Of a stretch of DNA of 64,000 nt, positions 24,263-63,141 are shown in pieces (the stretch's first letter is position 1; each line of letters opens with the position of its first letter). This DNA comes from Clytia hemisphaerica (taxonomy: Eukaryota; Cnidaria; Hydrozoa; Leptothecata; Clytiidae): contig CACVBU010000671.1 in assembly GCA_902728285.1 (NCBI GenBank), positions 310,001 through 374,000 on the forward strand. Direction: 5' to 3'. The notes beneath the pieces were generated by a model. The model ran no database searches. It saw only the letters and a program-made list of their open reading frames with translations, and had not been told where the DNA came from. Made by a program: the position numbers and the translations under genes.

Positions 24263-25626
24263 GAGTCTGCTAATTGACGCGCCTTACGCGCCCACGCGCC
24301 CTCGTATTTTTAACGCACCTTCGCGCCTTACGCGCCCACGCGCCCTAAAATGCTACGCGCCCACGCGCCTACGCGCCCTGGTAATTTGACGCGCCCTAAA
24401 AATTTGACGCGCCCTGATAATTTGACGCGCCCTAAAAATTTGACGCGCCTTAAAATATCGACGCGCCCTGATAATTTGACGCGCCCTAAAAATTTGACGC
24501 GCCCAGATAATTTGACGCGCCCTAAAAATTTGACGCGCCCTGAAATATCGACGCGCCCTAAAAAATCGACGCGCCCTGAAATATCGACGCGCCCTAAAAA
24601 ATCGACGTGCCCTGATAATTTGACGCGCCCTGATAATTTGACACTACCTAAGTAGTGAAATGAAACACTTTTCTTTTTTTGATACTTTTTTAATGAGCCT
24701 AAAAATGTTTAGTTTTAGCTAACCATGCCTGTTTTGTGAAAAATTTATTTGGTGTAAAAAGCTTCTTACCTATATGCAAGTAGAAGTATTTTGCAGTGTT
24801 TTTGTTTCATCGTTTTTTTTCTAGAAGTTTATATTGTTTTAACATTTTTTTAAAAGTTTTTACTGTATTTTTAATACTGCACTTTTGCCTTATGGTAAAA
24901 AATCTTTTGATTGATTTGAAAATCAGTGTTTTCTCCATGTCTCATAAAGAATGTTGTTCTTATCCCAGTGTCGTTCTATGAGCGATTGAGGATACAAACC
25001 TTTTTCCCGAGTATTTTATTACCAAGCCATAATTCGTGTTTTCAGTACATGATTTTTTTCTACGTCACTGCAGTGATCAAATTATTATTTTAAATCACTC
25101 TTTTCCAAATTGAGATGTACATTTAACAAAGACAGCGACAATGGAAAACGTTTCAAAAATTCCCAAGTCAAAGATGATTACAAAAAGTTGGGTTTTCTGT
25201 GAAGGGACAAATTTGTGCATTTTCCCCTGTAAATTGAATAGAAATAACGTGTAGCATGCACAAATTCTATGAAATAGACTAATAAAGCGTACATAATGTG
25301 TACAGCCGATAAATGGAACGGGTCGACTTTAGGCTAATCCCTTAAGAAATGATCATTTTGCTAACGCCGACATTCTTTTATATACCAACCATGTATGATT
25401 AGACTGGTCCCATTATTCCGTCCGTCAAAACCGTCGAAAACTTAAGGCACATCAAAACCCTAGGGCGTGTCAAATTTTCAAGGCGCGTCGAAAATCTAGG
25501 GCGCGTCGGAATCATAGGGCGCGTCGAAATCATAGGGCGCGATGGCGCGTAGGGCGCGTAAGGCGCGAAGGCGCGTCAAAAATATGAGGGCGCGTGGGCG
25601 CGTAAGGCGCGTCATTTAGCAGACTC
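24263..25626. mobile_element. TIR element with GACGCGCCC subterminal repeats, 9-bp duplication
   Basis: TIRs start GAGTCTGCTAATTGACGCGC and continue through CTTACGCGCCCACGCGCCCT for about 60 bp. The left subterminal zone holds roughly twenty units of GACGCGCCCTAAAAATTT and variants; the right has the inverted set (AGGGCGCGTCGAAATCAT). The 9-bp duplication ACTTTGCAC flanks it exactly (24254-24262, 25627-25635). A 9-bp duplication fits Mutator-like elements, but no transposase is present. A 101-codon ORF at 24350-24655 is only the translated repeat. Confidence 0.85.
25037..25190 (+). repeat. diverged copy of the palindromic MITE interior
   Basis: TTCAGTACATGATTTTTTTC, CTACGTCACTGCAGTGATCA, then ATTGAGATGTACATTTAACA and AAAGACAGCGACAATGGAAA match 23570-23710 in order. 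It lies inside the 24263-25626 element, either as part of it or as a further nested insertion. Confidence 0.6.
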
Positions 25627-45540: not shown

Positions 45541-48420
45541 GAAAATTTTGTGCAGCTTTGGAAAAGTGATTGTCGCACTTTGGCGGCTGCAATTAAGGGT
45601 AGTCGGCTGAGCAAAACAAAGAAATGTGTTGAAAAACTAGTTTGTTCGGAAGTCAAGTACTGCTGTGTTCATAGTCGGTAGAAATTTACTTCACGTGGGA
45701 CTGGTAAAAGGAGCTTCCTAGTAAGTTTGATTATTAATTTTGTTTTCTGGCTGGTTGGAATTTATGAATGGACTTTAGATTCATATAAAATTTACTTCAA
45801 TTTGTTTTTGATTTCTTCTAGCACTTTGAAGTCAGATTACCTCTTCTTGATGAACACAACCACGAGCTCAATGAGATAATCTCTCAGTTATTTATCAATG
45901 ATAAGTACAACCGGACTTTTCAACATTTTCAATTGTTTTGTTTGTAAGTTGCAATTGTAGAATTAAAATTTTTCCTTATTGCATTATAGGTCAGAAATCT
46001 TTGCAAACAATAGAATATCTTCTATATAAAATTTATGAAATGACAGAATTTGATCTTGTGATTCATAAAAAAACTAATGTCCCTTTCTTAAACGATGATT
46101 CGATTCAATGTAATACAAACTACCACTTTTTATTATTTTCTTTATTTATCTCAAAGAATTTATTTAAGTATCTTCCCCAACAGAGGAAACTGCCAGATGA
46201 CTTAATAAAAAGGCCAAAAACTTGATGGATCTCCAAGTCAACAAAAAAATGCTGAAGAACCAACTTCAAGCGGAGAGCGGTAAGGTGGTTGTTCTGAAAG
46301 ATTTGAGTAACCTCGCACAAAATAGTCAGAATAAAGATACCTTTGTTGAATTCATAAATATCCTGAGAAACCAATATGGTATGTATTTCACTAGACTTCA
46401 ATGAACACAAAAATTCCTGTAAAGTATGTTTTGAATAGCGTATATTTAGAATTTGAGAAGTAAGTATCGTTGCTGGCACCTTAACATTTCCTTTAGTTGT
46501 TTATTCTACAATTTCATAAACCATACTGTCAGGACAGAGTGTTTCAAATATTTTAGTACATAAAGATCCTCACAACTTTTTCACATTCCAAACATTATTC
46601 ACTTTCTCTTATCATTCTTCGCAATTTTGGAGATGAGTCATGATAATTTTTATATAAAGATTATTACTTATTAATGATGATGGTCGACAACTCTCCTACA
46701 ACCCTTCTTTTAGGTCGCGCTGTGGAATTAAACGTGAGCGAAAATGGAGATTTTATTGAGTTCTTCTTTCAGGACGAGGTTATGAAGGGAGACTTTGCCT
46801 CGTTTCCAGAAGTCATGTGCATTGAGGCCACATATAAACTACTAGAAATTCGTTTACCAGTGTATATTTTCTTAGTGGGGGATTCGATGGGTCTCAGCGA
46901 GGTAGTTGGGGTTTCTGTTTTGGTCAATGAGATGAAAGAGACAATCAACTGGCTTATTGATACATTTAAAAAGCTGAACCCTAATAAACTGAGAGTTGTA
47001 ATGGCAGATAAAGATTTTAACGAACGTGACACTATTTCAAGATTATGGGGTTGTGCAGTGTTAATCTGCCTTTTTCATTCATTAAACGCTTTCAAAGGGG
47101 GCCTAGCTGACCTCAAAATATCCAAAACTGATTCAGACACAGCCAAAGAACTGTTTGAAAAGATGTATTATTCTTTTTCTATGGATTTTTACAATGACAC
47201 TTACAACGATCTGAAGCTTTGGGAAACACGCCAATTTGGGACTACTTCTATAAAAATTGGCACCCAGTTCGTCAGGACTGGGTTAGATGTTTTAAAGCAC
47301 TCCATGGTAATTTTCTAAACTCAACGAATAACAGATTATTAGAAAGCTTCAATTCAAAATTAAAATCTGTTATTAAAAAGTAGTTCCTTTGAAGATTTTG
47401 TGAAAGTTTTTTTTACTGTCCTTTATGCATTGAGAGACGAGAGAGATGGTATAGTTGCCAAAGTCAGCAACAAGAAAAAGGTATTTACGAACACCTCACC
47501 CTCTGAGATTGAAATTTCCTACTTGACAAGCTATTCTGCAGACTTTGCTATCAAAGAATTTAAAACTTCAGAGAATTATAAATTGAAACAATCCAACGAG
47601 AATCTTGATCACACATGTTCTTGCTATTTTAACAAGTCAATGAGGAGCCCCCCCCCCAGCGGACCCTCAATTCACGCGATCACGCAATTTTTTTCGAAAT
47701 TCACGCATTCACGCAAATTTTCCTCGAGTTTCACGCAATAACCCGATTTTTCAGGAAATTGTAAAATTATCAGGAAGAATCGGGGAAACACTGGAAAATC
47801 GGGAAAACTGCACATGATCGGCGGATAAAAGGGAAAATTCACGTATTCACGCACAAAATAACCCAGTTTCACGCATTCACGCAATCAAAAAGTGAATTTT
47901 CACGTTCACGCAAGTTTTTTCAATTCACGCATACACGCATTTTTTTTCCAATTTTCACGCATTCACGCAACCAAAAATGCCTATTCACGCATTCACGAAA
48001 ACCGCTGGGGGGCCCCAATGAGACTGCCATGTAAGCATAATTTGCTTATATAGGGCAGAAAATGATCTAAAACTTTTTGACCCTGATACTTGTGATCCTA
48101 GATGGTCTCAAGAGTATTATTACCAGCATCAGAGATTATATTCTTATCAACAAAATAAAAGTTTTTCGATGAATCGATCAATCAGTGTTTCTGTATCCAC
48201 GCCAAGAGACTTGAAAAAGATGAATCATAACGAAAAACTCCGAGATGCTAATAACGTTTGCACAAAGCTTGATAATCTTGCATGTGAAGTGATTCCTTCG
48301 AAAGAAAACTCAATCTGCTCAAAGAACTACAAAGAATTTGGGAAAATAATGACGAAACAAGTGTTCTTTTCTGGTCGGGTATGTTTTTGCAAGCACAATT
48401 TTCTTTTCATTTTCTTAATC
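45541..48420 (+). pseudogene. ZSWIM/MULE-type transposase-like gene, decayed, N-terminal and catalytic part
   Basis: Exon 45541-45720 (NFVQLWKSDCRTLAAAIKGS ... KYCCVHSR, TAG at 45679, KFTSRGTGKRSFL) has good splice signals. Exon 45822-45905 reads HFEVRLPLLDEHNHELNE. YLPQQRKLPDDL at about 46170 and LQVNKKMLKNQLQAESGKVV at 46230 differ by a one-base shift. The RNase H-like core (46674-47340) has FPEVMCIEATYKLLEIRLPV (normally IDATYK, so the first catalytic Asp is Glu here), RVVMADKDFNERD (second Asp), and a frameshift near 47235. NWHPVRQDWVRCF and NNRLLESFN (Glu region) follow in another frame. The SWIM finger CSCYFNKSM...RLPCKH is split by the 47645-48015 element. ZSWIM1/3-like genes derive from Mutator-type transposases. 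Multiple disruptions make this copy inactive. Confidence 0.8.
47645..48015. mobile_element. 371-bp TIR element inserted in the SWIM zinc finger exon
   Basis: Tips GAGCCCCCCCCCCCAGCGG and CCGCTGGGGGGCCC are inverted partners. The flanks carry the exact duplication CAATGAG (47638-47644 and 48016-48022; 6 or 7 bp because the tip can be drawn two ways). Near each tip is a field of TTCACGCA repeats (TTCACGCATTCACGCA). No ORF. Removing the element and one duplication joins CSCYFNKSM to RLPCKH, the canonical C-x-C...C-x-H SWIM finger. Confidence 0.9.
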
Positions 48421-51386
48421 TAGTAGAAGAGAATTAGCCAAATTATCACCCGAAACCGGAAAAAAATTGGTATAAAGCTGAAATTTTGCACAAAGCTCAG
48501 GGAAGGTGTCAGAAAAGACATATTAAAAATCCCCACCTTCAGCACCTTGGTGTCATCAGATATTGGGCATAATCCATAATGGCTCCCAATAAAAAATATC
48601 AAAATTAAAGTTTTTCAAACATAGACATATTATACATCAATCGATCGGAATTTTAGTACTGAAAACTTTTTTGCCTACGAAAAAGTCTGAAATTGTACTG
48701 AATGTGAGTAAATTAAACTCAACCACATGTCGGTATGGAACCAAATTCCATCAAAATCAGATTTTTTTAAATCTCATAAGAAGTGTTATATCGTTGGCTG
48801 TTAAGGCTGAACAAAAATAAAAAAACTGCTTTAAGTTACAAAATGTTAAGAATAAGAGTATATTAATCCCTTTTCTATGATGTCACGAAAGCTCGTGAAA
48901 GTTCTTAGGGCTCACCTTAGCTCTTAGGGCTCTTAGGGCTCACCTTTTAGTGCAGAGTGCCCTTGTTAACCACATCACATGTACCCTGATAAAAGAAAAC
49001 AAGCTCACTATCAAAGGCCTTGATTTGGTATATGAAAAGGCAATGGATGAAGGTTTCTCAAACGAACATCTCGTATCGCTAAGTGAAACCAAAGTCTTCA
49101 AAGATTGAGAATAAAGTTTAGCTTCCTTCTCAACCACCATGTCAGAGAAATCACGAACCGCTAAGCTATGGTTATCGTACATCGGCTAAGTGAAGATCTT
49201 AAAGGAATTCATTGTAGCTGAAATAAGTTTCAATTGGTACGTCCATATACAGGCTATCAACAAGATGAAAAACCTTTTTGCAGCAACTGGTCATCGAAAT
49301 TACGTAAAGTGTTCCCGCATCTACGTTCAAGAAATGAAAAACTGGATACCCATGTAAGCGAACACCTGAGAAGGTCATCAAAAGAATCCTCCCGAGACAT
49401 CTTAGTAATACATGATAACGAGGCACCGTATTCCAAGGAAAGATGTCTCTCCAACAATCACAACAAAAGTCAACTAATCAGACTTCTGCAAAATGCATTT
49501 CAAGCGAGAGGTCACACATTAAAGATCTGCATGATTGTTAAAGATGCATTGGAATGTGGTGAAAGCAACGACGTTGTGGTAGCGGATGATACAGATGTTG
49601 CTGTCATGCCCCTGTATCATTGGAACGAAGAAGACCACCACGATACATACCTACTACAAGAATCTATCTTATCTTTCTGACACATATTTAAAGAAAGCTC
49701 GAGTCTTTAAATTGTTAAACTATTGTTTCGTTCTTTGCTCTTCTTATTCTTACTGTTCTGAGTCTCTCGAACACCTCGTCCATGGAAACTGAGCTGCCTA
49801 AAGGCGCGAGAATTTTTAGGAGCCAGCCACCTAACTTAAGATATTCGTTATCATTTACTCATTTAGGACGTCAAAGAGCACCTACTCTTCATCCACGCTT
49901 GGTCTGGGTGTGAGTCTACCTCAGCGGTTTTCAATAAGGGAAAACCAAGCTTCCTTAGTCTCGTTCGGAAGTCGCAAAAGTTACAATCAGCTTCTAGAAT
50001 TATGACGCATACGTGGGCAAAGGAATCGACCATCGGAGAAACGGCAGTTGAAATCTTTGTTCAGCTTTTTTGATGGGAAAAGCCAGTCAAATTTGAGACA
50101 TATCCGGTAAGATATTATTCATCAACGCAAATCTTCAATTGTCCAAAAACTATTGTTTTATGTATAACAACAAGAAACAAAAGGACTAGCAAGCACCAAT
50201 ATATTACCTCTAGATCACGTAAATGTTTATTATGCATTACGATATTATGATCATAATATATCATCTCTTTTCAGCTACACCAAATACAAAGAAATGCTTG
50301 CTAATGGATTGATCGATCCAGAGAAGCTTCCCCCATCCGAACGAAGTGCTTATTATCATGGGTTAAGAGTTCACCTACAAATTATGCAATAGCTGCTGAT
50401 CGATGAGAAAGACACCACCTTCAAGCCAACTGATTGGAATTGGTATTAAGCTGTCGGACATTTCAAGCCAGCTGCAACTGGCAAGCCCTTAGCTCCACCT
50501 GAAATCTTAAATATAATAAGGTGCAAGTGCAAGCCATCATCCAAGAACCCATGTGGTACCAATCTGTGTTCCTGTCGAAAGAATGGTCTTAAGTGCATGT
50601 CGTCATGTGGTGGGTGTTACGGAGAAGGGTTAGTTATCTATCTCATACCATTATATTTAAGTAGGTGCATCTACTTGATCCAATGCAATGAAGCAATTAA
50701 ATCGAACTGAAAAGTGGAAAAGCTCTCCACCTGTAATATTGAACATTGAAACCTAGACATACTTCGTATTCTCTCATTTAAGCCAACGGATCGAAAACAA
50801 TACAACGAGTACAGTTTCGATGACAATGACAAGCATCAAGATGATGAGCACAGGAGCGTCTTTTCAGATATTTTTGGAGAAGGAAAAATATTCAGGATTT
50901 TGAAATTCAAATATATGTTATTCTTTATTTCCCGATTCCAACTTTAACTCATTCTTACTACAACAAAGTATAAAAAATTCTTTTGTGAAAATCAGCTTAA
51001 ATCGCTAACTTCAGTATACAAGCTTTTTCAGCCTTTAAGATTTGCTATCCAACGATTTATAACCCTTTGCATGATTAGAGAAATTAGTGTTTAAGTTCAA
51101 TTTACTCACATTCGGTACATTTTCAGACTTTTTCGTAAGCAAAAAAGTTGTTCAGTATTAAATTTCCGATCGATTGATATAAAATATGCATTTGTTTGGA
51201 AAACTTCAATATTGACAATTTTTATTGGGAGCCATTATGGATTATGCTCAATATCTCTGATGACGCCAAGATACTGAATGTGGGGATTTTTAATAATTTC
51301 TTTCCTGACACCTTCCCTGAGCTTTGTGCAAAATTTCAGCTTTGTACTAATTTTTTTTCCGGTCCAACCCTAATTCCCTTCTACTA
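48421..51386. mobile_element. 2.97-kb element with long TIRs carrying a family A gene copy
   Basis: 48421-48815 and about 51025-51386 are inverted copies (tips TAGTAGAAGAGAATTAG and CTAATTCCCTTCTACTA). They are diverged but collinear through AAAGCTGAAATTTTGCACAA, TCAGGGAAGGTGTCAG, TAATGGCTCCCAATAAAAA, ATCAATCGATCGGAA and AAAAAGTCTGAAA. AATCT precedes the left AGTAGAAG and AATCC follows the right CTTCTACT, a possible imperfect 4-5 bp duplication. Between the arms lies a single recognisable gene copy, family A (48960-50640), same strand. The element sits in an intron of the ZSWIM-like gene (donor VFFSGR|GTATGT at about 48378; acceptor ATTTCGCAG at about 51471). Confidence 0.75.
48960..50640 (+). 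pseudogene. family A (PIN-like, HAWSGC, CXC) gene, decayed copy 2
   Basis: Ordered segments: GLDLVYEKAMDEGFSNEHLV (49016), TAKLWLSYIG...VKILKEFI and NWYVHIQAINKMKNLFAATG (49157-49285), then KSQLIRLLQNAFQARGHTLK (49467). VVVADDTDVAVMPLYHW (49573; the acidic pair is the PIN/FEN-like signature), LFIHAWSGCESTSAVFNKGK (49877), PPSERSAYYHGLRVHLQIMQ (50332) and a TSO1/CXC-like zinc module CKCKPSSKNPCGTNLCSCRK with LKCMSSCGGC (50523-50630) complete it. Stops and frame changes interrupt it. It extends further C-terminally than copy 1 and shows that the family ends in a CXC domain, which in other proteins binds DNA. Being framed by long TIRs, it may be element cargo or the element's own gene. Function is not established. 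Confidence 0.7.
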
Positions 51387-52027
51387 ATCCTAGGATTAGC
51401 TCAAATTGTGTTTGTATAATATTATCATGAATTACTTAATTATTTCGCAGACGGTTCCTACATTCACTCAACGAAATTGTGTCATGTTTATGTTTATGTT
51501 TATGTTTCTTTTCTTTAAAGTTGATGCAAAGTAGTACAATGTGTACTTAGCTCGAGGCTAATCAATATCAACTACATTCATTCATTCATTCATTATAGGA
51601 CCACATCATGTAAACAATAGCAATGGAGAAAATGCTACTGACAAGACTACTGGTAAGTTAAATGTTGCAATTTGTTTATCTTGTGATAGGCTGTTTTGAA
51701 GTTTTCTGAATTAAATGTTCACTTTGGACATCATCATCAAATGAGTTTATGTCCCTGTGTTCATTATAGAATCACAACACGTAAAACCGTCAGGGACAAT
51801 TTAGAGAAGACTGTTGACCCACCATCTGGTAAGTTTGATGTTGTATATTTATCACCGTATAGAATCTCATTTTGAAGTTTTAATTTCAGCAAAATTTTGT
51901 ATTTTGGAATTAGTCCTTGCTCGAGTTTGACAACCCTATTCATTGGAAACTGACCTGGGCCATTTCGATGTATAAAATTGATAGTACTTTTCTATTTATA
52001 AAAAATACTGTATTACTTTATCTTTTA
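51387..52027 (+). pseudogene. ZSWIM-like gene, small exons including a duplicated pair
   Basis: After the ATTTCGCAG acceptor at about 51471 there are two short exon-like units, each with TTATAG acceptor and GTAAGTT donor: 51600-51651 (GPHHVNNSNGENATDKTTG) and 51769-51832 (a frame reading ESQHVKPSGTI then stop; another frame ITTRKTVRDNLEKTVDPPSG). Their similar lengths, borders and CACATCATGTAAAC / CACAACACGTAAAAC starts suggest tandem exon duplication. (TGTTTA)n and (ATTC)n microsatellites lie at 51485-51510 and 51575-51597. Confidence 0.4.
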
Positions 52028-53000
52028 AGGAGGTGGGGTATGGTGTCACAAGACATGTAGGATATGCAGAGCAGACAAGCAAGAAAACTTGGTATCCAGA
52101 ATTTCATCTTTCTATACTTTCAAAATTTCTAAACCTATAACTAACAAATCAAATCTTGGCCTGTAAGAGGTGAAACCCCTGTGAAACCCTACTGATAAAA
52201 ATATTTTTCATAGGTAAAGAAATTCTGTTTTTCGTCATTTTTATAGATCCACTCCTGAACAAAATGTTTATATACTGCACACAAATCAACTTTGTAAAAT
52301 TCGTAAGTTTTTTCCCCACTTAGGTTCGATGCTTGAAGTGCATTCCTGAAAGATATTATCATGAGAAGTGCCTTATCAAGACAAAAAAGAGAAATACTTG
52401 CTAAAGCCAGAGAAAGACTCGTCGTAAGTGTGCTTGATCTCCTAATTTCTAGTACCTTATAGTCTGAAATAAGCGGGATGGGTGGAAAATGTTTCAAAAT
52501 GTTATAGCAGAGAGGTTGTGGGGGATTGTGGCAGAGTGGAGTTGGAGGGGTTTCTAAAGATGTAAGAGTTCTTAAACAACCAGTGTGCATGGTTTCAAAA
52601 TACATTTATATCAAATTATCATTATATTTCTTCTTTCAGACCGCACAGGGGATGCAATCATTAAAGGAAGGGGAAGTTTTGTTGCGGAAACTTATAGACT
52701 TGAAGGTGAAGGTGTGTCATGGGTGCAAAGGATCCATTGCTAGTGGACCACACTTCGTCCACCACACGATATTTGCATCGCACGTAGAGAAAAGAGGAAG
52801 AAGTCCGTGCAAGCTTAACCAACTCTAATTCCTTCGTTCTGACAAATGTTCATTATCACCCTAGACGCTCCTGCATAAATGTCAATCCATCTTTCTTAAA
52901 AACATCGAAGGCTGTAAAACTTGACCAGACCTATAAAACTTTTTTGAAGGAAAATGGTATCTTTGGCTAGTAGTAGGGGGAAATTTTTTTTTTTTGAGGT
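52028..53000 (+). pseudogene. Cys/His-rich C-terminal modules of the ZSWIM-like gene
   Basis: GGGVWCHKTCRICRADKQEN (52029) and VRCLKCIPERYYHEKCLIKT (52325) together resemble a PHD-type finger split by an intron. 52640-52925 encodes GMQSLKEGEVLLRKLIDLKV KVCHGCKGSI, HFVHHTIFASHVEKR, then after a frameshift NVHYHPRRSCINVNPSFL. I know the VCxGC...H...YHPxxxCI pattern from transposase-associated invertebrate proteins. Their position downstream of the SWIM exon and same strand suggest that they are the C-terminus of the same gene. No function is assigned. Confidence 0.5.
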
Positions 53001-54070
53001 CGCTCGATTGTTTTGGTCAAAGAACTTGTTATACATTTTTCGAAAGCTACCAGGTAGGGAAATCAAAATAACTTAAGTTCCAATTTTTTTTCGGACACTT
53101 TGGTATGATTTTCGGACAAATATTACGGTCTCAGGCAAAAATCATAGGGTCAAAAATTAATGAAAATTTTAGCTTGAGAAAACAGAGACCTGTTGTATAT
53201 TTTTGAAAAGCTCTCAAGAAATAAGATTAGAGATATATTGCGAATATAGGCGATTTTAGTACCTAACTCGAGATATTGAGCTTCAAAAAGTGCAAAACAG
53301 CTGTTTCTGGCTAAATGACATGAAATTTTGCACAGATACACAAGACCATAAGCATTTTCTAAAAACAAAAAAAAATTTATTTTTTCAAAATGGCGGATAT
53401 TTGAAGCCAAAGTTTTGAACTGCTTGAAAATACCGGTTGGATTTGATTCTCAGTTATTCCCAGCCTGAGACTTCAAATTAATTTTTTTTTCAGATCCTGA
53501 AAGATCAATCCTTTAACTACCAAATATCAAAAATCTGTCGTAGAGAATTCATTTTCGGCTCAATAAATCAATTTTAAAGATGACCTATATTTTCCAAAAA
53601 TTCCCTAGCAACGCCCTAGCAACAAGGCTTTAACAGGCTACACCATGTACCGGAAGGCTCAAAAATTGGTTTTAATGATTGACAGTCCATTTCTGGACAG
53701 TCGTGATCCTAGACTGATCAGATCATTAGAGGATATTACTTTATATGCAAAAGAAATTCATAATTTTCACTGCGATGATATCAATCTATTCTGGTCAGTA
53801 GAATGGATTTTAGAAAAACGCTTTTAGAATCTTTAGAATTAAAGTTTTATTTTATTTCTTTTAGTGAACATAGAAGAAAATTATGATTGGTAGATAACAT
53901 GAAAAATATAAACAACAGGCATTAAAGTGGGTAGCTATGATGAAATGGAAAAAGTGTTTTCTAGGGAATGTCCAGCTTGTTTGTGAATAAATTGCAGACT
54001 GACATTTCTGAGGTAATGAACCAGATAGAGTTAAGGTATCAGAAGTGAAATATTCAAGAACTAGAAAGCT
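53001..54070. other. mostly non-coding; one exon-like ORF
   Basis: 53645-53827 encodes MYRKAQKLVLMIDSPFLDSR and continues open for 60 residues. It could be a terminal exon of the preceding gene, but no family signature or clear splice sites support it. The remainder is AT-rich. CCCTAGCAACGCCCTAGCAA near 53600 is a short repeat. Confidence 0.3.
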
Positions 54071-54402
54071 TTAAGGTCGCTTCCCACTCAGCTTCTTTTG
54101 GTCGCAGACCAATGCGCACGGCTCAAATATTGCATAAATTAAATAAATTAAGCCTTCAAGGCTTGTCGCTTTGAGCGCGATGAGAGTTGAAAATATTCTA
54201 CTTCTACTTCAATTGTTCTTTTTTGAGTAGCCAATCAGAAAAGAGAAAAACAAAAACATTCGAATCTTTTTTAAGATTTCGAGCGTCATGATTCGAATTA
54301 ATTTTTGTTTTTGTTTTCGAGTTAAAATTATTTGAAAAAAAGATTTTTACGAAAAGAGAAAAGTACAGATTAGTTGGAGTGTATTTGAATGAAAAGTTTA
54401 AA

Positions 54403-55727
54403 ATGAATGGAATGAACGAATGTGAATATAGATTTGATAGAGAAGAGCAGGATAGAGAAGAAAGTGAAGACGACCAAACGGATGAGATTAATGCAGCGGA
54501 AAGGGAAGAGTATAGAAGGATGATGGAGTTTCGCAGGAGCCAGGAGCAATATGCCCGGATGATGAGCCCTTTCCAGTTACTTCAACAGGCCGAGGGGAAT
54601 ATTGTAATGCCTGGAGGTACAAGCTATCTAGAAACACTCTCACCAACCATTGCCACGTTACCAGTAACCACCGAAAGCCAACAACCAAACCTATCAGCTA
54701 ACAACAAGAACCTCAAAGTAGTGTCGGATGAGAGCCTTATCCAAATCGTAAAACAATATCAAATTCTGTGGGGAACTTCTGGAAAATCTTTCAAAGATAC
54801 TGAAAGAAAAAATCGTTGCTAGATCGAGATCGGCAAAGAATTACACGCCGAACGTAAGTTAAATATTTTAATATTTTAGTACTTATTAAGTACTGGTAAA
54901 ACATTTCCATCAAAATCAAGGCTTCTTTTAGACCACTTGAATGAATAAATACATAACTGTATAGATTTTTGCTCGAAAGAATACTAAGGAACTTTCTTTT
55001 CTATTTTTAGCTGATGCTTTGAAAGTAAGATGGAGGACTTTGAAGGACGGTTTTTCAAGGGCATGGAGAAAACGAAATGAATATTTCAACGGTACCGGGA
55101 GACCAAGTGGCAAGGTTCGAACATGTCAGCATTTCGAAATGCTTCTTTTTTATGAAAGACAGTGTTACTAGCAGACAAAATAAGGGGTCTAATTTATCCC
55201 CGCAACAATCTTTAAATCAAACCATCTCGTTACCTTCAGATGATCTGGGAAGGCGAACACTCGACTTAAGAGTGGGCACCCAGAGTCAGATAACAGCTGG
55301 ACTTCAGAACCCTACACTTATCACAGATAATATTCAGAATACATCAATTGGTGTTCTTAATCCGCCAACTGGTCTTAATAATCCAAGAGCGTCAACTCCA
55401 ACCACAGGTTTCCAAAAGAGGATGGTATCCTCTTCCAATAATTTTTCAAAACCTGGAGCTAAAGAACGTGCTGCATTAAAACGCAAGAGTGAGGACCGCC
55501 GAGACGACATAGACACTCTGCTTGTTGGGACCCTAGCTTCTATGAATAAAAGTTCAATCAAAGAAAACGTAGTTCCACCCCAAAAAGAAGATTCAAGTGA
55601 TATGTTATTTTGTAAAAGCATAGTACCAATATTGGAAAAATTACCTAAGAAGAAGAATAGACAAGCCAGAATAAAAATTCAAGAAATACTTTACGAACTT
55701 GAAAGTGACTTTTATATTGATCTTTAA
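54403..55727 (+). pseudogene. Harbinger-associated MADF-BESS protein
   Basis: The first exon (from ATG 54403) has an acidic/Gln-rich start (NECEYRFDREEQDREESEDD) and opens a MADF domain (SLIQIVKQYQILWGTSGKSF), with a TAG stop at about 54820 just before IEIGKELHAE and a GTAAGTT donor. The second exon from about 55012 completes it (ALKVRWRTLKDGFSRAWRKR and the CQHFEMLLFYERQ helix). The frame changes near 55165, after which 55170-55727 is open and ends with a BESS-like motif (DMLFCKSIVPILEKLPKKKN...IQEIL). In autonomous Harbingers the Myb/MADF protein carries the transposase to the TIRs. Inactive here because of the stop and the frameshift. Confidence 0.8.
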
Positions 55728-55817
55728 CCATCTACAATTTTATTTTACACAACAACTTTTTTTGTTTTTCTAGAATAAAATATTTAAGTTTATCTTACAA
55801 ACTTTGGTGGAATCAAC

Positions 55818-56958
55818 CTATATAATATCTAAAAAATTGTGCAGGGCGACTATTGCTTTCGTAGGCTCCTGTGCAAGTTCAGCAGATGCTGTTATTGGCA
55901 TAGTGTGCAGAGGGGTCTGAACCCCCCCCATTAATATTTCATCCCCCCCTATAAAGGTATCCCCCCTATTTTTAAAATTTTTTGATCCCGCACCATTTAC
56001 AGGGGTCCGAGCCCCCAGCATATAATTTGTACTCCCAGTATTGGGGAAGAATTTTGATGAATGAAATATATTATTCAGTGTGAATTCGTACCAATAGTCA
56101 ATGAACTTGAAAACACTAGCAAATAAACAGTAAACTAATAATTTTTTAACCAAAAAGTTACTATCCCCCCCATTTTTATTTGATCCCCCCCTATAAGCTC
56201 AAACCCCCCATTTTAACTGGAAAATTGCCCATCCCCCCCTATAAAGCCTTCCTTGAAAACTCGGATCCCCCCCTTAAAAAAGGGGGGGGGTTCATACTAT
56301 GATTGGTCTGCTAAACAATCTAAAGCGAGATGTAGCTATTCCAAAAGCATTTTCAACAACTCGTCGTGCTCTCGATATTCGATAATTTGCAATAACTTTC
56401 TTTTCTTGTGGATCGGATCTAGGATAAGGTTCTACTAAATTATTGCGAAGAGGGAATGCTTCATCCCCTAAAAATACATAAGGAAAGCACTTGTTTGAAC
56501 CATTTAACTTCCTTGGATTTGGCAGGTCAAAATGTTCATTTATAATTGCACGTCCAAAGTTGGAACTGGCAAAACTACCTCCATTGCTTATCCTTCCATA
56601 GTCACAAATACCGATAACTGGCTGCGATAGTAGAAAATGCATCTCCTGTGATCAGATATCGCAACGTGATGCATAGTCGTTCATCAGGCTCGATTGTTTC
56701 ACGACGAAGGTTGCACTTACTGATCAAAGGACCAACCCAACTGAATAGTAACTGAAACCTGCTTGGGGTCATTCTAAAAAGCTTAAAAAAGTATTCATGA
56801 TAAAAAAGAGCAGCTTCTTTAACCAGACAATGAAACTCTCCTTTGTTTTTTCTAATCTTGTAAATATCTCTTATCCAAAACCGAGATGTTCTTTTTTCTT
56901 TTTCTCTTGTAATCTTCTTCTTAAAATCAGTAAAAGCAAAACTTGTTGATTGCCGCCA
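55818..56958 (-). pseudogene. Harbinger DDE transposase (HARBI1-like), deleted and interrupted
   Basis: The N-terminal part is SRFWIRDIYKIRKNKGEFHC with LVKEAALFYHEYFFKLFRMT and ETIEPDERLCITLRYLITGD (57-56.65 kb, minus). At about 56600-56625 the frame jumps straight to CDYGRISNGGSFASSNFG, so the region with the first catalytic Asp (GAIDGKH block) is missing. This continues with YVFLGDEAFPLRNNLVEPYP and YRISRARRVVENAFGIATSR (third catalytic Glu region). The 55899-56301 element then interrupts after RPI, and ITASAELAQEPTKAIVALHN then FLDII ends it at 55818. HARBI1-type transposases cut and paste the element. This copy cannot be active. Confidence 0.88.
55899..56301. mobile_element. 403-bp element with C-run ends inserted in the Harbinger transposase
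   Basis: Tips CATAGTGTGCAGAGGGGTCT then GAACCCCCCCC (left) and GGGGGGGGGGTTCATACTATG (right) share CATAGT and GAACCCCCC as inverted ends. The exact duplication ATTGG flanks it (55894-55898 and 56302-56306). Near both tips the words ATCCCCCCTATAAAG and TCCCCCCCAT recur. No ORF. Removing it with one duplication joins RLFSRPI to TASAELAQEPTKAIV as in HARBI1 proteins. Confidence 0.88.
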
Positions 56959-57544
56959 TATTTAAAAAAAAAATTTTGTTTTTGTTTTGATTTTGAATTT
57001 AAGCGCGCCGCTTTCTTTTTTTGAAAGTTTCAATGGAATGAGAAAATTGGTCGCCGACCAATTTTGGTCTGCGACCAAAAAAAGCTGAGTGGGAAGCGAC
57101 CTTTAGTAGAATTCAGAAATGATTAAAAATGGTAATATCATTAGAAAGCATCTGAAATTCAATGGTCCTTATTATTTCAATTCTGATATATTTTCTTTAC
57201 ATTACTTTGATTAGAATTCCATCTTATTTTTCCTTATTTTTGTCACAGAGTAGACCTTTTTTCAGGTTAGTTGAAAATTTACTTTGGGCATTGCTGTCAA
57301 ATTGCTTTAGGCATAAATTCAGAAATAAAACCGCTAAATGATCTTTTTTCAAAGGTTGAGATATGATTTCAAATTTAATTAAACTTTTTTTCAGAAATAA
57401 GATTTTATTCAAATTCTTAGTTTTCTGTTACAATTATTACAAGTAACAACCAGTTTGTCATATATTACAATGTTTCCTTCTTTAAAACACTTAATGTATT
57501 ATAGTAAAAACAGTATTCTATTAATGAAGCTTTGTATTCCATGC

Positions 57545-57782
57545 AGAATTTCATTAGAATTGATCAATTATTCAGTGTCGGCCATTTTGAATTTTCTAAA
57601 TAGATGATGGTGAAAGAAAAGGAAACCGAAAAGTGTTCTGTTGAATCCATCGATTCTTACAAATGTGGAAACAACAAGCAAAAGAGTGATGATACCCTTC
57701 GAACGGTCAAAATAAATGAATTGTGTGGTGATTCAACACACTTAATAATAAAGAACTTGATAATTGCACCTACAAAGAAAGC
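57545..57782 (+). CDS. possible 5' exon of gene X
   Basis: ATG at 57604 opens MMVKEKETEKCSVESIDSYK and the frame stays open to THLIIKNLIIAPTKKAA, where a repeat element begins. It precedes gene X on the same strand, but the join to the exon at 59118 is not visible in sequence and would have to be spliced across 57783-59117. Uncertain. Confidence 0.3.
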
Positions 57783-59094
57783 TGCCCTTACGAATTGTTT
57801 TGCAATTCAAATACATTCCAAGAACAATCCATTTGCAATTCAAAATCTGAATGTATTTGAAATATTTTGGAAATAAAAGAAGAACAATCCAAATGTGATT
57901 CACAATCTGAAATGCTTTTGAATTGTATTTTTGATTTTCAAAAGAGTTTTCGAATGTATTTCAAATACAATCCAGAATGGATGGTATTTGAAATGTCCAG
58001 GAAAACAAAAATAGCAACATTCGATAATTCAAATGTAATCCAGTACTGAGCATGCCCAGGCTTGTCAGAAAATCGAACTCCAAAATCAAAACAAACCACT
58101 TCAAGATTTTTCAGAGTCAAGGAAGGTTTACTTGAAAGACGGAAAGCTTTACAAATTATATTTTTAATGTGAAATACTCTAGAATGTATTATGAGGTTGT
58201 TGATTGTGGCTTTTTTGAAAAATGGTTGTTACATTATATGGCAATAATGTATGTAAGTTGTTGATTTTTTATGACTTTTGTACCTGTTCTAAATTTGCAT
58301 CAATATATTTGGTTTTAAAGGAAAAGATAGCAAAGAGGGGTCCGAGTTTTTAGCCATTTATTTTGCGATCTATAAACGGAGATCAGAGAAGCTGCTTGTA
58401 TACTTTTTAAATAAAATCTTACGTTTTGTAGGAGTCCATGTTCTGGAAGTCTTGATTGAGTTTCCACTAAACAACCTCATTCTTTTTCTTGAATGCTTGA
58501 ATGTTTTGAATTAAAAGGAGGTAACAGGTTTGTTAAATTTCATATGAGTATAAAATAATCTTTCTTGATAATGAAATTTATTTTCGTAATAAGCATTGCA
58601 AATTTTCTGAATCTTCTGGTGTTTTCAAATTCTGCCATCTTGTCCAATTTTAATTGCATTGCCCACAATGCATGATTTAGATTGCATTTGAAATGTGAAA
58701 TGTGCAATGGAATGACTTCTATGTTTCAAATACAATTCAAATTAGATATTTCAAAAACATTTCACAGATTGCTTTTGAAATGTGTTTTCGAAATGCTTTT
58801 GAATTGCTAACTATTTTCTTGTAAATTCACAATTCAAATACAATTCAAATTATACAATTCAAAAGCAGTTCATGGATTGCTTTTGAAATGTCATTATGAA
58901 GTGCATTTGAAGTGCTAACTATATTCTTAGAAATTCATAATTCAAATACAATCCAAATTATACAATCCAAAAGCAGTTCATGAACTGCTTTTGAATTAAC
59001 TGCGAAATGTATATGAATTATTATTTGAATTGTAACTGAACCTTCTTTGAAATACATTTGAATTGTACAATTCAAATACAATTCACATTCGTAG
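57783..59094. mobile_element. fold-back repeat rich in AATTCAAATACAATTC words
   Basis: Ends CCCTTACGAATTG and CATTCGTAGGGG are inverted partners. Both flank zones are packed with TTTCAAATACAATTCAAA and TGCTTTTGAAATGTnTTT units in both orientations, for about 400 bp on each side, around a unique core (58130-58560). No ORF and no certain target duplication. It is followed by a plausible splice acceptor (GATTTCTCAG, 59108-59117), so it may lie in an intron of gene X. Confidence 0.6.
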
Positions 59095-59117
59095 GGGTGG
59101 TTGATTTCTCAGCGCCT

Positions 59118-62100
59118 CAGCAATCTACTGCCTGATGATGCAAGTATTTGTGAGAGACATCGTTTACGATACGGAAAGAGTTTTCAGGGGGGGTTTCAGG
59201 GGTCTTAAATACCGTCATACCGACAAGATTTTGGGTCAAATACCGTAATACCGTCGGTGAAGGAAGCCTAATACCGATACCGATATTATATTTATGTTTT
59301 TTTTCTCGAAAATAATGAATTTTCAGTTATCAAATCTATTGTGTAGTAACAAATGAGAAATTGTACAAACAAGTTTTGTACTTTATGAGGCCCCCCCCAG
59401 TCAACCCTCAATTCTGGTATTCACGCACAAATTTTTGCCAATTCACGTATTCACGCGCGAAAAAAAACCATTTTTGCTTTTACATCTTTGGTTAAACGAT
59501 TGTGACCTTATTGGGCTAAATTTAACCTTTTTATGGTCTCTTTTAAACAGATTGACCTATTCTTATGGGATGGGCTGGAGTTTTTACAAGAGACTTCACT
59601 AATTGGTTATTTGAAGTAATAGAGATGACGCGTTCTTTAGAAAAAGTAACAAAATTGTTTTATTACAGGTTAACGACCAACCAAATCAAACGAGAGCCAA
59701 TAAAGTTTTTTGCTAGTTTTGTGACCTTATTCTCGATATCGTCCACTTTTTAAGGCCTCTTTTACAGCTATTTGAGCTTTCATAAAGCAATATTTTAGGT
59801 CTGCCGCGCCAAAGTTACTTGCTTGTTACGGGAGGCAAATGCAAAAATAAGCCTTTCCCCCAATAATTTCTTCTTCGCAGACCCATAAGATGTCTTTTAT
59901 ATTGAGAATTAATTCAAAATCGAGGTTTGGGCCAATCATGGTCTGAGAAGCCGTAGACTTCAACACAGGCTTCATAGAGGTGGTGCTGTGGTGGAACTAG
60001 AGGACGCGAATTCTAAAGTTTAACCCCCCCTATCGGAGGAAAGAAAAAAATATAAAGAAGAACGCGAGCGAAGCGAGCGCGAAAATTTTTCGAGAATTTT
60101 CGCTCTCCTTTGTTATTGAAAAACGGCCTTAATACGCTATTGTTAGCCAAGTATGCCTTGTTTGGTCATACAATTTTTGATTTTATTTAACACTGACCAT
60201 TTGTTGGCAAAAATATGGTACGGCGAGCGACGTACCTGCCGTACCCGGTGCGGCGTTCCAAGAGTTTCGCCCAAGGAAAAATTTAAAATTTAGAATGCCT
60301 AGATTGCCTGAAAACGCATCATGTGCATCATGATGTGAATTATTTTTTAATCGTTCGATGCTGCACAAGATGCTTTTAGAACTACTGGGTGCAGTATTTG
60401 CATCACAAAAGTTGTCACTAAAAAAATGCGCCCGCAGAAAAATAACAAAAATTGTTTAGTTATCGTAAAGTTTTGCTTATTTTGAATAACCTCACCATGA
60501 CAATAACTCAATAGGACATCCTAGATTGTGCGAGCGAAGCGAGCAAGAAAATTTTACTGGTTAAAATAGCGGAAGAGACTTATCTTTTTTGAAAATTTTT
60601 CTGCATGAAATTTATGAAGAAACTAAAAGATAAATAGTTTTATACCGAAATACCGTTTTTTATTGATAAAAATATCGAAATACCGACAAAAAAACAGGCA
60701 ATTTACCGATACCGGTAGAAAATGAAATACCGTAATCCCGTCGTTTTTTTCTCGTAATACCGATTTACCGGGGGTAAAAAGGCCCAATACCGTCATACCG
60801 TAAAAGTGAAAACCCCCCCCCTTTTCAACCACTGAAAAAGTGCAAATATCCAGGACATTTAGAAACAAAGAAAAAGCAATCTCTGAAACCAATGTCAATT
60901 TCGTTTGCTTATCAAACCGAAATGTTATATGGCAGTGCAGCAAAGGAGACGATAATTCCAATAGGCTCTCTTTGGTGTAGTCATTGCAGAACTGTCTTAC
61001 ACCCAAATAAAGTGGATCAACATGATGAAATGCTGAAAAAGCTTTGTCAAATTTGCTTTCAAACACATACTACTAAACAAAACGATAGGTAACTTTCCAG
61101 ATAGGTTCAATTTTCTTGGGGTTGTTATTCTCATTGAAAAATTGTCATTGTAAGTATTGAATACTATTAGGTGTGTATTAAAACTTGAAATAATTTATTT
61201 CAGTCCTGTAGAACTTAAAGATTCAATGTCACAAGATGAATTATCAGAAATCGAAATGGATCCCACTGGAATCAATGACAGTCTCGGTTATAGCACAGAG
61301 GAGTATGTACCAGGGAGTGATTTTGACAGCTGTGCCAAAAAAAACTCTACAAAGGATTGTGAAGAAAGCAAACATAGCAATCAACGAGGCCCCCCCAGCG
61401 GTTGGCGTGATGGCGTGATGGAGGGTTTTTCCTGGCGTGATGGCGTGAAATTTTGAAAAAAACGGCGTGATGGCGTGAAAATGAAGTGCCGGCGTGATCG
61501 TGAAATGGATTTTTTTTAGGCGTGATGGCGTGAAATGTGCAGTTCAGCGTGAACGTGAAAATTATATTTATTAGTTGAATAGTATTTCTATGTCCATTTT
61601 AGCCAATTTAGAGGGTTTAAATTTCAAAATTTTCTTGGTCTTTCCCAGCTATGGTGGGGCCTCCTATAGATCTCATTTTAAAACATAAAAGAAACCGTGC
61701 AAACAGTTCTATTCATCTGTCATTTATCCTTGTAACTTCCAATTGTTTTTAGGAGTTGCTAGCTAGTCTTCGAAATAAAGTCGAATGCTATGAGAGGGTC
61801 GAAAATTGAAAATTTTCCCTGTCAGCGCAAACCATGGTTGTGCTTCCTCTGTAACTAACATTTTACTCTCTTTCTTAGATGCTTATTTTTATAGATGCAT
61901 CCTTTATTTCAGTAAAAGATACATTTGTAGCAAAAGCCTTAAACAGAAAGAAGCAATATGTTTACTATGAGGTGTGATTTTAAGCAGATTGGTATTGATC
62001 AAAGGAATCCTGTGATGTTTAAACCATATTTTGGAAAAAAGAGAGTAAATGAGGACGATTTTAGCCATACTAAATTGAAAATTTCTCCTGTCGGCGTAAA

Positions 62101-63141
62101 CCATGGTTGCGCCTCCTCGTTCCCCTTTTGAAAACTATTCACACTAATTCACAATTAATGCCCATGGGTCCCGTCAACGGGGGACCAGGGAGCATGGCCC
62201 CTCATGTTGCTTGTACTTTTAAAAGATTTCCATTATTTTTACATGAATTATTTTTTAAATTGAATTGAAATGGGTCCTAAAATAGCACTTTGAGCCATTT
62301 CAAAATTCAAGAATTTTCTCCGTTACCCAACCATGGTGGGCTTTGTCAATTTACTCAAATATACCTCAGCCCTCAAACCGGTGCCCTTTGATGCGACTAG
62401 TTGTCCAACAATTTTTGGTATGCATAAGTCAAGATTACGTCATTTTTCCTATCGAAAACACCCGAAAAAACTGGAATTTGACCCCTGTGTATTACTAAAA
62501 ATAGAAAAACAGAGGTCAAATCACTTCCAGATTTTTCAGGAGTTTCCGATAGGAAAAATGATATAATCTTGACTTACGCGTATGAGGATGCCGAAAAACT
62601 GATTGACGACCAAACACACACCTATTTGTGGGCAAAAATTAAGTTTATATAACAAAAATATGAGCGTGAAAACTAAATTTTCTAGGTGTAATGCCGTGAA
62701 ATCGAAAAAAATTGGCGTGGTCGTGAAAATCAAATCTTTCAGGCGTGATGGCGTGAAATTGAAAAAAAATTGGCGCGATGGCGTGAATTTTTGGTCCGCT
62801 GGGGGGGGCCTCATCAACGCGATACTAGAGAATATAGCACCTGGTCAGGTAGATTACGAGAGGAGTGTTTCCAGAAATATCAACAGGAGAAAGAGGAACA
62901 GCAACTGTTGGCATATCTAGATCAAGCAATACGCGATGCTCCTGGAAGGAACACACAAATACAATTACTTTCCATTGTTTGCAAAAAGGATTACGAGGAA
63001 AAGTATATTTACAGTGAAGATGAGTTGATGATACAATTCCAAGGTGTAACTTCCTATGAAATCAATAAGATCGGCCACCTGTCTGGTTGGCATTTTACAG
63101 ACCAGAATGTAAACTTGATCAGATCATGTATTGACTGATTT
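59118..63141 (+). CDS. gene X: Cys/His-rich protein with two elements inside its exons
   Basis: Coding segments: 59118-59186, [59187-60821 element], 60828-61088, intron with GTAACT donor and ATTTCAG acceptor, 61204-61386, [61387-62812 element], 62820-63141 (stop; last residue 63138). With both elements and one duplication each removed, the frame is open throughout. It reads a zinc-binding-like N-terminus (LLPDDASICERHRLRYGKSF, then CKYPGH), IIPIGSLWCSHC...CQICFQTH, an acidic S/D/E linker (STEEYVPGSDFDSC), and a helical C-terminus (RLREECFQKYQQEKEEQQLL; SEDELMIQFQGVTSYEINKI). The C-x2-H...C-x4-H and PIGSxWCxxC pattern resembles the N-terminal module of uncharacterised invertebrate multicopy genes, possibly relatives of family B. 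AATAAA at 63188. No function known. Confidence 0.6.
59187..60821. mobile_element. 1.6-kb ATACCG-repeat TIR element in gene X exon
   Basis: Left GGGGGGGTTTCAGGGGTCTT then AAATACCGTCATACCG; right CGTCATACCGTAAAAGTGAA then AACCCCCCCCC, the inverted partner. The exact 6-bp duplication TTTTCA flanks it (59181-59186 and 60822-60827). Subterminal zones repeat ATACCGTAATACCG. The interior has GAGCGAAGCGAGC words (60070, 60530), a GCGAAAATTTTTCGAGAATT TTCGC palindrome, and an apparent solo left end of the 61387-type family at 59392. No transposase. Removal restores RYGKSF joined to QPLKKCKYPGH in frame. Confidence 0.88.
59392..59465 (+). mobile_element. solo left end of the GAGGCCCCCC family, nested
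   Basis: GAGGCCCCCCCCAGTCAACC then CTCAATTCTGGTATTCACGC and TTCACGTATTCACGCG. Matches the left end of 47645-48015 (CAGCGGACCCTCAATTCACG) and lies inside the 59187-60821 element. No right end is seen. Confidence 0.55.
61387..62812. mobile_element. 1.43-kb GGCGTGATGGCGTGAAA-repeat TIR element in gene X exon
   Basis: Tips (G)AGGCCCCCCCAGCGG and CCGCTGGGGGGGGCCTC, the same tip family as 47645-48015. The duplication ATCAACG is exact at 61380-61386 and 62813-62819 (6 or 7 bp depending on how the first G is assigned). Both subterminal zones repeat GGCGTGATGGCGTGAAA; the core (61570-62640) is AT-rich with three AACCATGGTnGnGCCTCCT-like words (61840, 62100, 62328). No transposase. Removing it with one duplication joins SKHSNQR to DTREYST in frame. 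Confidence 0.9.

Follow-up and report, generated by a model that had tools for sequence, protein, structure and literature searches.

Non-autonomous inverted-repeat elements within coding-like sequence of Clytia hemisphaerica, and no excess of open frames at genomic copies of two of them

Introduction

Miniature inverted-repeat transposable elements (MITEs) are the described system closest to a set of elements that we analyzed in the hydrozoan Clytia hemisphaerica, in a stretch of 64,000 nucleotides referred to below as the window (assembly GCA_902728285.1, contig CACVBU010000671.1, positions 310,001 to 374,000 of the forward strand). Three of its elements, E1, E3 and E4, resemble MITEs in their short length, the lack of a long reading frame of their own, the presence of terminal inverted repeats (TIRs), a constant length of target duplication and the existence of many similar copies. 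They differ from MITEs in a C/G homopolymer that forms the tip or adjoins it and varies in length between copies, and in arrays of short words inside the ends. An initial annotation had recorded four elements (E1 to E4) in coding exons and had described them as a group of non-autonomous transposons that frequently land in exons. We consider it highly probable that these elements, and a fifth (E5), are ordinary non-autonomous cut-and-paste MITE-like elements, partly nested in other transposons, that a weak AT core mainly sets the targets of E1 and E4, and that their exonic look reflects the recognizability of such sites.

Other systems share part of this pattern. According to the sections of the source used here, some introner families occupy exonic positions and have inverted repeats and target duplications; introners mostly use GT/GC..AG, and GA 5' splice sites occur in some families (PMC9860276). 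A second source, in the portions used here, gives 6- to 7-bp duplications for Dada transposons, which enter small RNA genes and of which Dada-U6 and Dada-U1 are without terminal inverted repeats, and a duplication of about 8 bp for the hAT superfamily (PMC3706591).

Results

Each of the four recorded elements was found at the place claimed and was flanked by an exact direct duplication (AATGAG, ATTGG, TTTTCA and ATCAAC for E1 to E4, as checked by script in the window); E5, which lies in a stretch termed gene X, had been missed (Table 1). The C/G runs in opposite orientation at or near the ends of E1 to E4 were confirmed, as was the repeated word peculiar to each. Placement of the ends of E1, E3 and E4 from family copies corrected the bounds of two elements. 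Duplications of 7 bp had been proposed for E1 (CAATGAG) and E4 (ATCAACG); both are 6 bp long, with the seventh base explained by the tip, as judged from family copies, and E4 begins at 61386. The longest element is 1.6 kb, and the longest stop-free frame inside any of E1 to E5 was 84 to 100 amino acids (aa). These short frames and the repeated families of E1, E3 and E4 upheld the classification as non-autonomous TIR transposons, for which we found shared TIRs, a constant duplication, high copy number (E1, E3 and E4) and an uninterrupted related site (E2 to E5).

Table 1. Coordinates of the elements, their duplications and their hosts in the window
Feature	Position	Strand	Remarks
E1 host, decayed MULE/ZSWIM1-3-like gene	46647..48423	+	PF21056, E 4e-26; PF10551, E 7e-8
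E1 left target duplication AATGAG	47639..47644		repeat at 48017-48022; 6 bp by 27 other family copies
E1, 372-bp MITE-like element	47645..48016	+	duplication, family copies, word array TTCACGCATTCACGC
E2 host, PIF/Harbinger-type transposon	54074..57102		inverted ends 54073-54112 / 57064-57103 (BLAST)
Harbinger partner gene	54292..55727	+	BESS motif at end, E 3.5e-10; weak MADF in first part
E2 left target duplication ATTGG	55894..55898		repeat at 56302-56306; empty site in L090, L091, L092
E2, 403-bp element	55899..56301	+	tip CATAGTRTG then C run; word array ATCCCCCCCTATAA
Gene X stretch	57341..63068	+	common to one sister copy at C781; interrupted by E5, E3, E4
E5, fifth element	57785..59097		tip CCC(C)TACGAAT; 2-bp duplication TG; word array ATTCAAAT
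E3 left target duplication TTTTCA	59181..59186		repeat at 60822-60827
E3, 1635-bp element	59187..60821	+	tip G run-TTT(T)CA; word array AATACCGTCATACCG
E4 left target duplication ATCAAC	61380..61385		repeat at 62813-62818
E4, 1427-bp element	61386..62812	+	tip GAGG-C run-AGCGG both ends; word array GGCGTGATGGCGTGAAA

Removal of the element together with one duplication left an open joined frame for E1, E2, E3 and E4. For E1, E2 and E3 the combined length of element and duplication is divisible by 3 and so says nothing about the frame; the assertion that removal restores it is borne out there by the stop-free join and homology. Agreement of the joined frame with an expected protein was obtained across the joins of E1 (SWIM) and E2 (DDE_Tnp_4) but not at E4, where a sister copy uses another frame.

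Family searches were performed on the genome (417,433,876 bases in 951 contigs), and the best 40 candidates were scored for each of three elements. For E1, all 40 of those scored, out of 2083 candidates, matched at 91-95% identity. The best 40 of 1955 candidates for E4 included near full-length matches at 82-91% identity, and the best 40 of 3447 for E3 included 15 end-to-end copies counting that of the window, the 14 others having 92-96% identity. The tip of E1 reads GAG(G)-C run-AGCGG, and its 27 fetched copies carry, with small changes, GAGG-C run-AGCGG at one end and mostly CCCC after the G run at the other. The E4 tip was present with few changes at both ends of ten fetched copies. In 10/10 fetched copies of E3, a G run-TT(TT)CA tip stood at both ends, with the run interrupted in L073 and L087. 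An E1-like tip is contained within E3 at 59388-59456. The middle of E3 (window 59700-60385, E3 positions 514-1199) was found at 94-95% identity in several copies with differing spacing of its neighbors, which points to E3 subfamilies with internal insertions or deletions.

The length of the target duplication was scored in 27 of the 39 other E1 matches and in ten E4 copies, the window copies being left out. An exact 6-bp duplication was detected in 31 of these 37, small tip shifts being allowed, which made an exact match somewhat easier; the exceptions were L004, L010, L015, L022, L026 and L053. When wider limits were applied to 27 E1 copies (the window's included, L013 unmatched), three had no duplication at all and two had one of 5 bp. 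E3-type copies had a duplication of at least 6 bp in 12/12 instances and of exactly 6 bp in ten of them, the twelve comprising ten of the 14 other end-to-end copies, the window's copy and a short copy at L045:1626-1837. A consistent duplication of 5 to 7 bp, on which the earlier interpretation had been made to depend, was thus present in these families. Among the 31 exact E1/E4 duplications, position 2 was T in 20 and position 5 was A in 25, with A or T at position 3 in 25 and at position 4 in 27. This composition indicated a weak preference for a palindromic N-T-W-W-A-N target.

The proposal that the elements frequently land in exons was not supported. As a proxy, the longest open frame spanning each empty site was determined for the 37 E1/E4 copies, to which the test was confined, and for a random control of 4000 sites, placed in 200 kb of sequence taken from 20 contigs with N stretches skipped. 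Because L012 and L014 have target and flank in common, at most 36 of the sites were independent. The spanning frame had a mean of 76.1 aa and a median of 58 aa at the E1/E4 copies, compared with 86.7 and 69 aa at random sites. Frames of at least 150 aa were found at 3 of the 37 sites against 4.1 expected, and frames of at least 200 aa at 3 against 2.3 expected. No excess of open frames was detected at the 37 sites (one-sided Mann-Whitney test for longer frames, P = 0.98). A control drawn from random positions in the same flanks agreed, with means of 79.0 (sites) and 81.4 (control) aa for 28 E1 sites, including the window's; the ends of these E1 sites were set at a fixed offset and may be off by a base or more, as they were for the window's E1; the corresponding means for 10 E4 sites were 98.6 and 103.9.

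The four longest frames that had been hit matched DUF1759 (E 2e-30), a reverse transcriptase (E 2e-5, below the cut-off), DUF6570 (E 1e-10) and, at L059, nothing. The DUF1759 frame, a BEL/Pao-type gag, also had weak protease matches, and DUF6570 is a domain that occurs in Helitrons. Overall, E1 and E4 do enter coding frames at about the expected rate, and the recognizable frames are those of other mobile elements. A preference for coding exons, in which the transposase or its partners would be drawn to exonic chromatin or sequence, could be argued from the position of E1 to E5, each of which is located either in gene X or in sequence with coding similarity. The lack of an excess at the 37 E1/E4 copies elsewhere and the short AT core of the E1/E4 target motif make such a preference highly improbable. 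The possibility of an ascertainment effect, which the initial annotation had itself raised, is the better explanation: the insertions gave the impression of being exonic because open frames are the places that permit reconstruction of an empty site, and E1/E4 copies elsewhere hit frames no more often than by chance.

The hosts of E1 and E2 were themselves related to mobile elements. E1 splits the SWIM finger (CxC..CxH) of its host, a gene that also has ZSWIM1-3 RNase H-like and MULE matches. Across the join, the match to SWIM PF04434 had an E value of 8e-4 and a score of 19.3 bits against a cut-off of 19.6. The insertion of E1 is supported by the duplication, the family and this match. The host frame is broken at other places besides E1; the gene may be mobile, or it may have been domesticated.

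The host of E2 was identified as a PIF/Harbinger transposon by a DDE_Tnp_4 match (PF13359) across the E2 join (E 2e-12), by inverted ends that are 97.5% identical over 40 bp and by a 3-bp duplication, TTA, on both sides (54071-54073 and 57103-57105). In these three features it resembles PIF/Harbinger transposons with a MADF/BESS partner gene, the MADF match of the partner gene reaching only an E value of 0.08, below the cut-off. It differs from them in having broken frames, at other places as well as at E2; the host is the target and E2 the inserted element. The right part of the host gave 14 genomic candidates, counting that of the window. In three of four fetched relatives (L090, L091 and L092), the E2 join was ungapped, with base differences and with gaps further off. 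The fourth, L093 (C792:143660-143960), diverges close to the E2 site, possibly through another insertion or at an element end. The duplication of E2 in the window is 5 bp. One full relative of E2 (L041:5676-6065) fits a 5-bp duplication apart from an additional A at one end, and E2-type ends were detected in L035, L041 and L044 of the 200-kb sample.

Introners, which are spliced from the transcript and leave the gene functional, were considered as an account of E1 to E4, whose insertion in coding frames, inverted repeats and duplications are like those of some introner families in the sections of the source used here (PMC9860276). However, no GT..AG or GC..AG excision register was found on either strand for E1 to E4 among the registers within the duplication, and this reading was rejected for that reason. 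E1 alone had a GA..AG register, and among its other copies a duplication ending in AG is rare. The decay of the E1 and E2 hosts at other places is a further difference from a gene that stays functional, and the likelihood of introners at this locus is close to nil.

E3, E4 and E5 share a different host. Two genomic candidates were obtained for the part of gene X that separates E3 from E4, namely that of the window and a sister copy at C781 (fetched as L089). Alignment of the window copy with the sister copy revealed E5, which is missing from the latter. The tips of E5 are CCCTTACGAAT and CCCCTACGAAT. At its empty site, 33 bases round the join were identical to the sister copy, and the ungapped stretch as a whole agreed with it at 47 of 58 bases; the mismatches correspond to an indel difference on the left side. 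The empty sites of E3 and E4 were each identical to the sister copy at 54/54 bases. The joined frame at E4 is open, yet a different frame is used here in the sister copy; compared with the latter, the window copy is longer by one A upstream of E4 and shorter by four bases downstream of it.

The nature of gene X bears on how these three insertions are to be read: it may be a host gene or a mobile gene. No Pfam match above the cut-off was obtained for it in the window or the sister copy, and the second frame of the sister copy had no match among solved structures. The occurrence of gene X at only two places at the DNA level is consistent with a duplicated host gene of which one copy was inactivated by E3, E4 and E5 while the C781 sister stayed intact, and the sister copy, in which none of the three insertions is present, contains stop-free frames 111 and 274 aa long. 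However, the sister copy itself is without the stretch 60856-61136 present in the window, and a stop ends its second frame after 274 aa, with a similar-looking frame continuing in another register. We also counted against a host gene the downstream protein, which appears to resemble a type frequent on mobile elements. Inactivation of a host gene copy is a tentative proposal, somewhat less probable than its opposite, and it is compatible with the MITE-like nature of the three elements.

Relationships among the five elements were unequal. The ends of E1 and E4 aligned at 71% over 149 bp and at 83% over 66 bp, and the two elements have in common a 16-bp inverted tip and the 6-bp duplication. Because of the common tip, the common stagger and the aligned ends, E1 and E4 most likely form one lineage. 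E3 differs from them in tip and word but has a 6-bp stagger like theirs. The notion of a single group was therefore retained for E1/E4 and, by its 6-bp duplication, E3; E2 (5 bp) and E5 (2 bp) stand apart. Since the staggers differ, E1 to E5 are not one group mobilized by a single transposase.

Two described groups were rejected as relatives on the basis of the source portions cited above (PMC3706591). Dada is like E1 and E4 in its 6-bp duplication and differs in that these elements have a 16-bp inverted tip, seen in E4 and E1 copies, against none in Dada-U6 and Dada-U1, and varied AT targets. Nor was small-RNA-gene targeting of the Dada kind apparent: the hosts in the window have protein-type frames and the duplications vary by copy, no RNA-family search of the flanks having been made. 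hAT was rejected on the duplications of 6 bp at E1, E3 and E4 and of 5 bp at E2, against 8 bp.

The tip words of the E1/E3/E4 set are GAGGCCCCCCCAGCGG and G run-TTTTCA. A few bases in from the tip, E1/E4 and E3 carry a CAG-GG motif that is reminiscent of hAT tips, though it does not stand at the tip itself. Tips with C/G runs were common, the 200-kb sample containing four further pairs with 9- to 10-bp matches and the E3-type copy in L045. The scan of paired C/G runs in the window and this sample found E1 and E4 and missed E2 and E3 in the window, so that it undercounts. The four further pairs (L036:5851-6184, L038:8423-8713, L039:3384-3719 and L045:3241-3594) belong to a separate C/G-tipped family with tips such as CCC-G run-TACTTAGGCA; its end matches of 9 to 10 bp suggest that it probably has an 8- to 9-bp duplication. 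A more speculative proposal is that a single lineage of DNA transposons, as yet without an assigned superfamily, has E1/E4 and E3 as its branches and is characterized by a 6-bp palindromic N-T-W-W-A-N target (seen in E1/E4), variable C/G homopolymer tips and word arrays. New families would have arisen by change of the word (TTCACGC, GGCGTGA, ATACCG) while tip layout and stagger stayed fixed, and C/G-rich tips would have evolved convergently in several other families of this genome whose duplications differ in length. We regard this proposal as unlikely.

Two further features were observed elsewhere in the window. An element at 24263-25626 has 75-bp inverted ends (95%) and an array of the word GGGCGCGT, and it is flanked by the 9-bp duplication ACTTTGCAC; the 9 bp and the long ends suggest a MULE-type element. 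On the minus strand at 2800-4332 there is an AAA_11 helicase-like frame (PF13086, E 7e-11), which may be an NFX1/ZNFX1-type gene.

Discussion

The interpretation of E1 to E5 as ordinary MITE-like elements with an exonic look that stems from recognizability builds on direct observation of the element ends and duplications, of the empty sites of E2 to E5, of the families of E1, E3 and E4 and of the lack of an open-frame excess for E1/E4. Transposition would begin with cutting at the terminal repeats by a transposase supplied in trans from elsewhere in the genome, the short words beside the tips most likely serving as its binding sites. Insertion at a staggered cut of 6 bases for E1, E3 and E4, 5 for E2 and 2 for E5 would be followed by gap filling, which would leave the direct duplication. 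Targets of the E1/E4 type would be chosen mainly by the weak palindromic AT core and not by coding status, and the hosts of E1 and E2 were likely under little constraint.

Several points weigh against this interpretation. No transposase was found, a genome-wide search for an autonomous copy not having been made. Gene X, hit by three of the elements, may be a real host gene, having a single sister at the DNA level and no Pfam match, and the E1 host is a decayed transposase-related gene that may have been domesticated rather than mobile. As regards the test of exon preference, an open frame across the empty site is only a rough stand-in for an exon and would miss short exons, and the copies covered, all of E1 or E4, came from the best BLAST matches instead of being drawn at random.

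These elements illustrate that an apparent tendency to land in exons can be an artefact of where empty sites are recognizable. Sister copies that keep the empty site offer a clean alternative to frame-based reconstruction. MITE-like families with exact ends and a 6-bp duplication are useful for repeat annotation and for finding the transposase, and the recurrence of C/G-run tips across families with different duplication lengths is a small puzzle in this genome.

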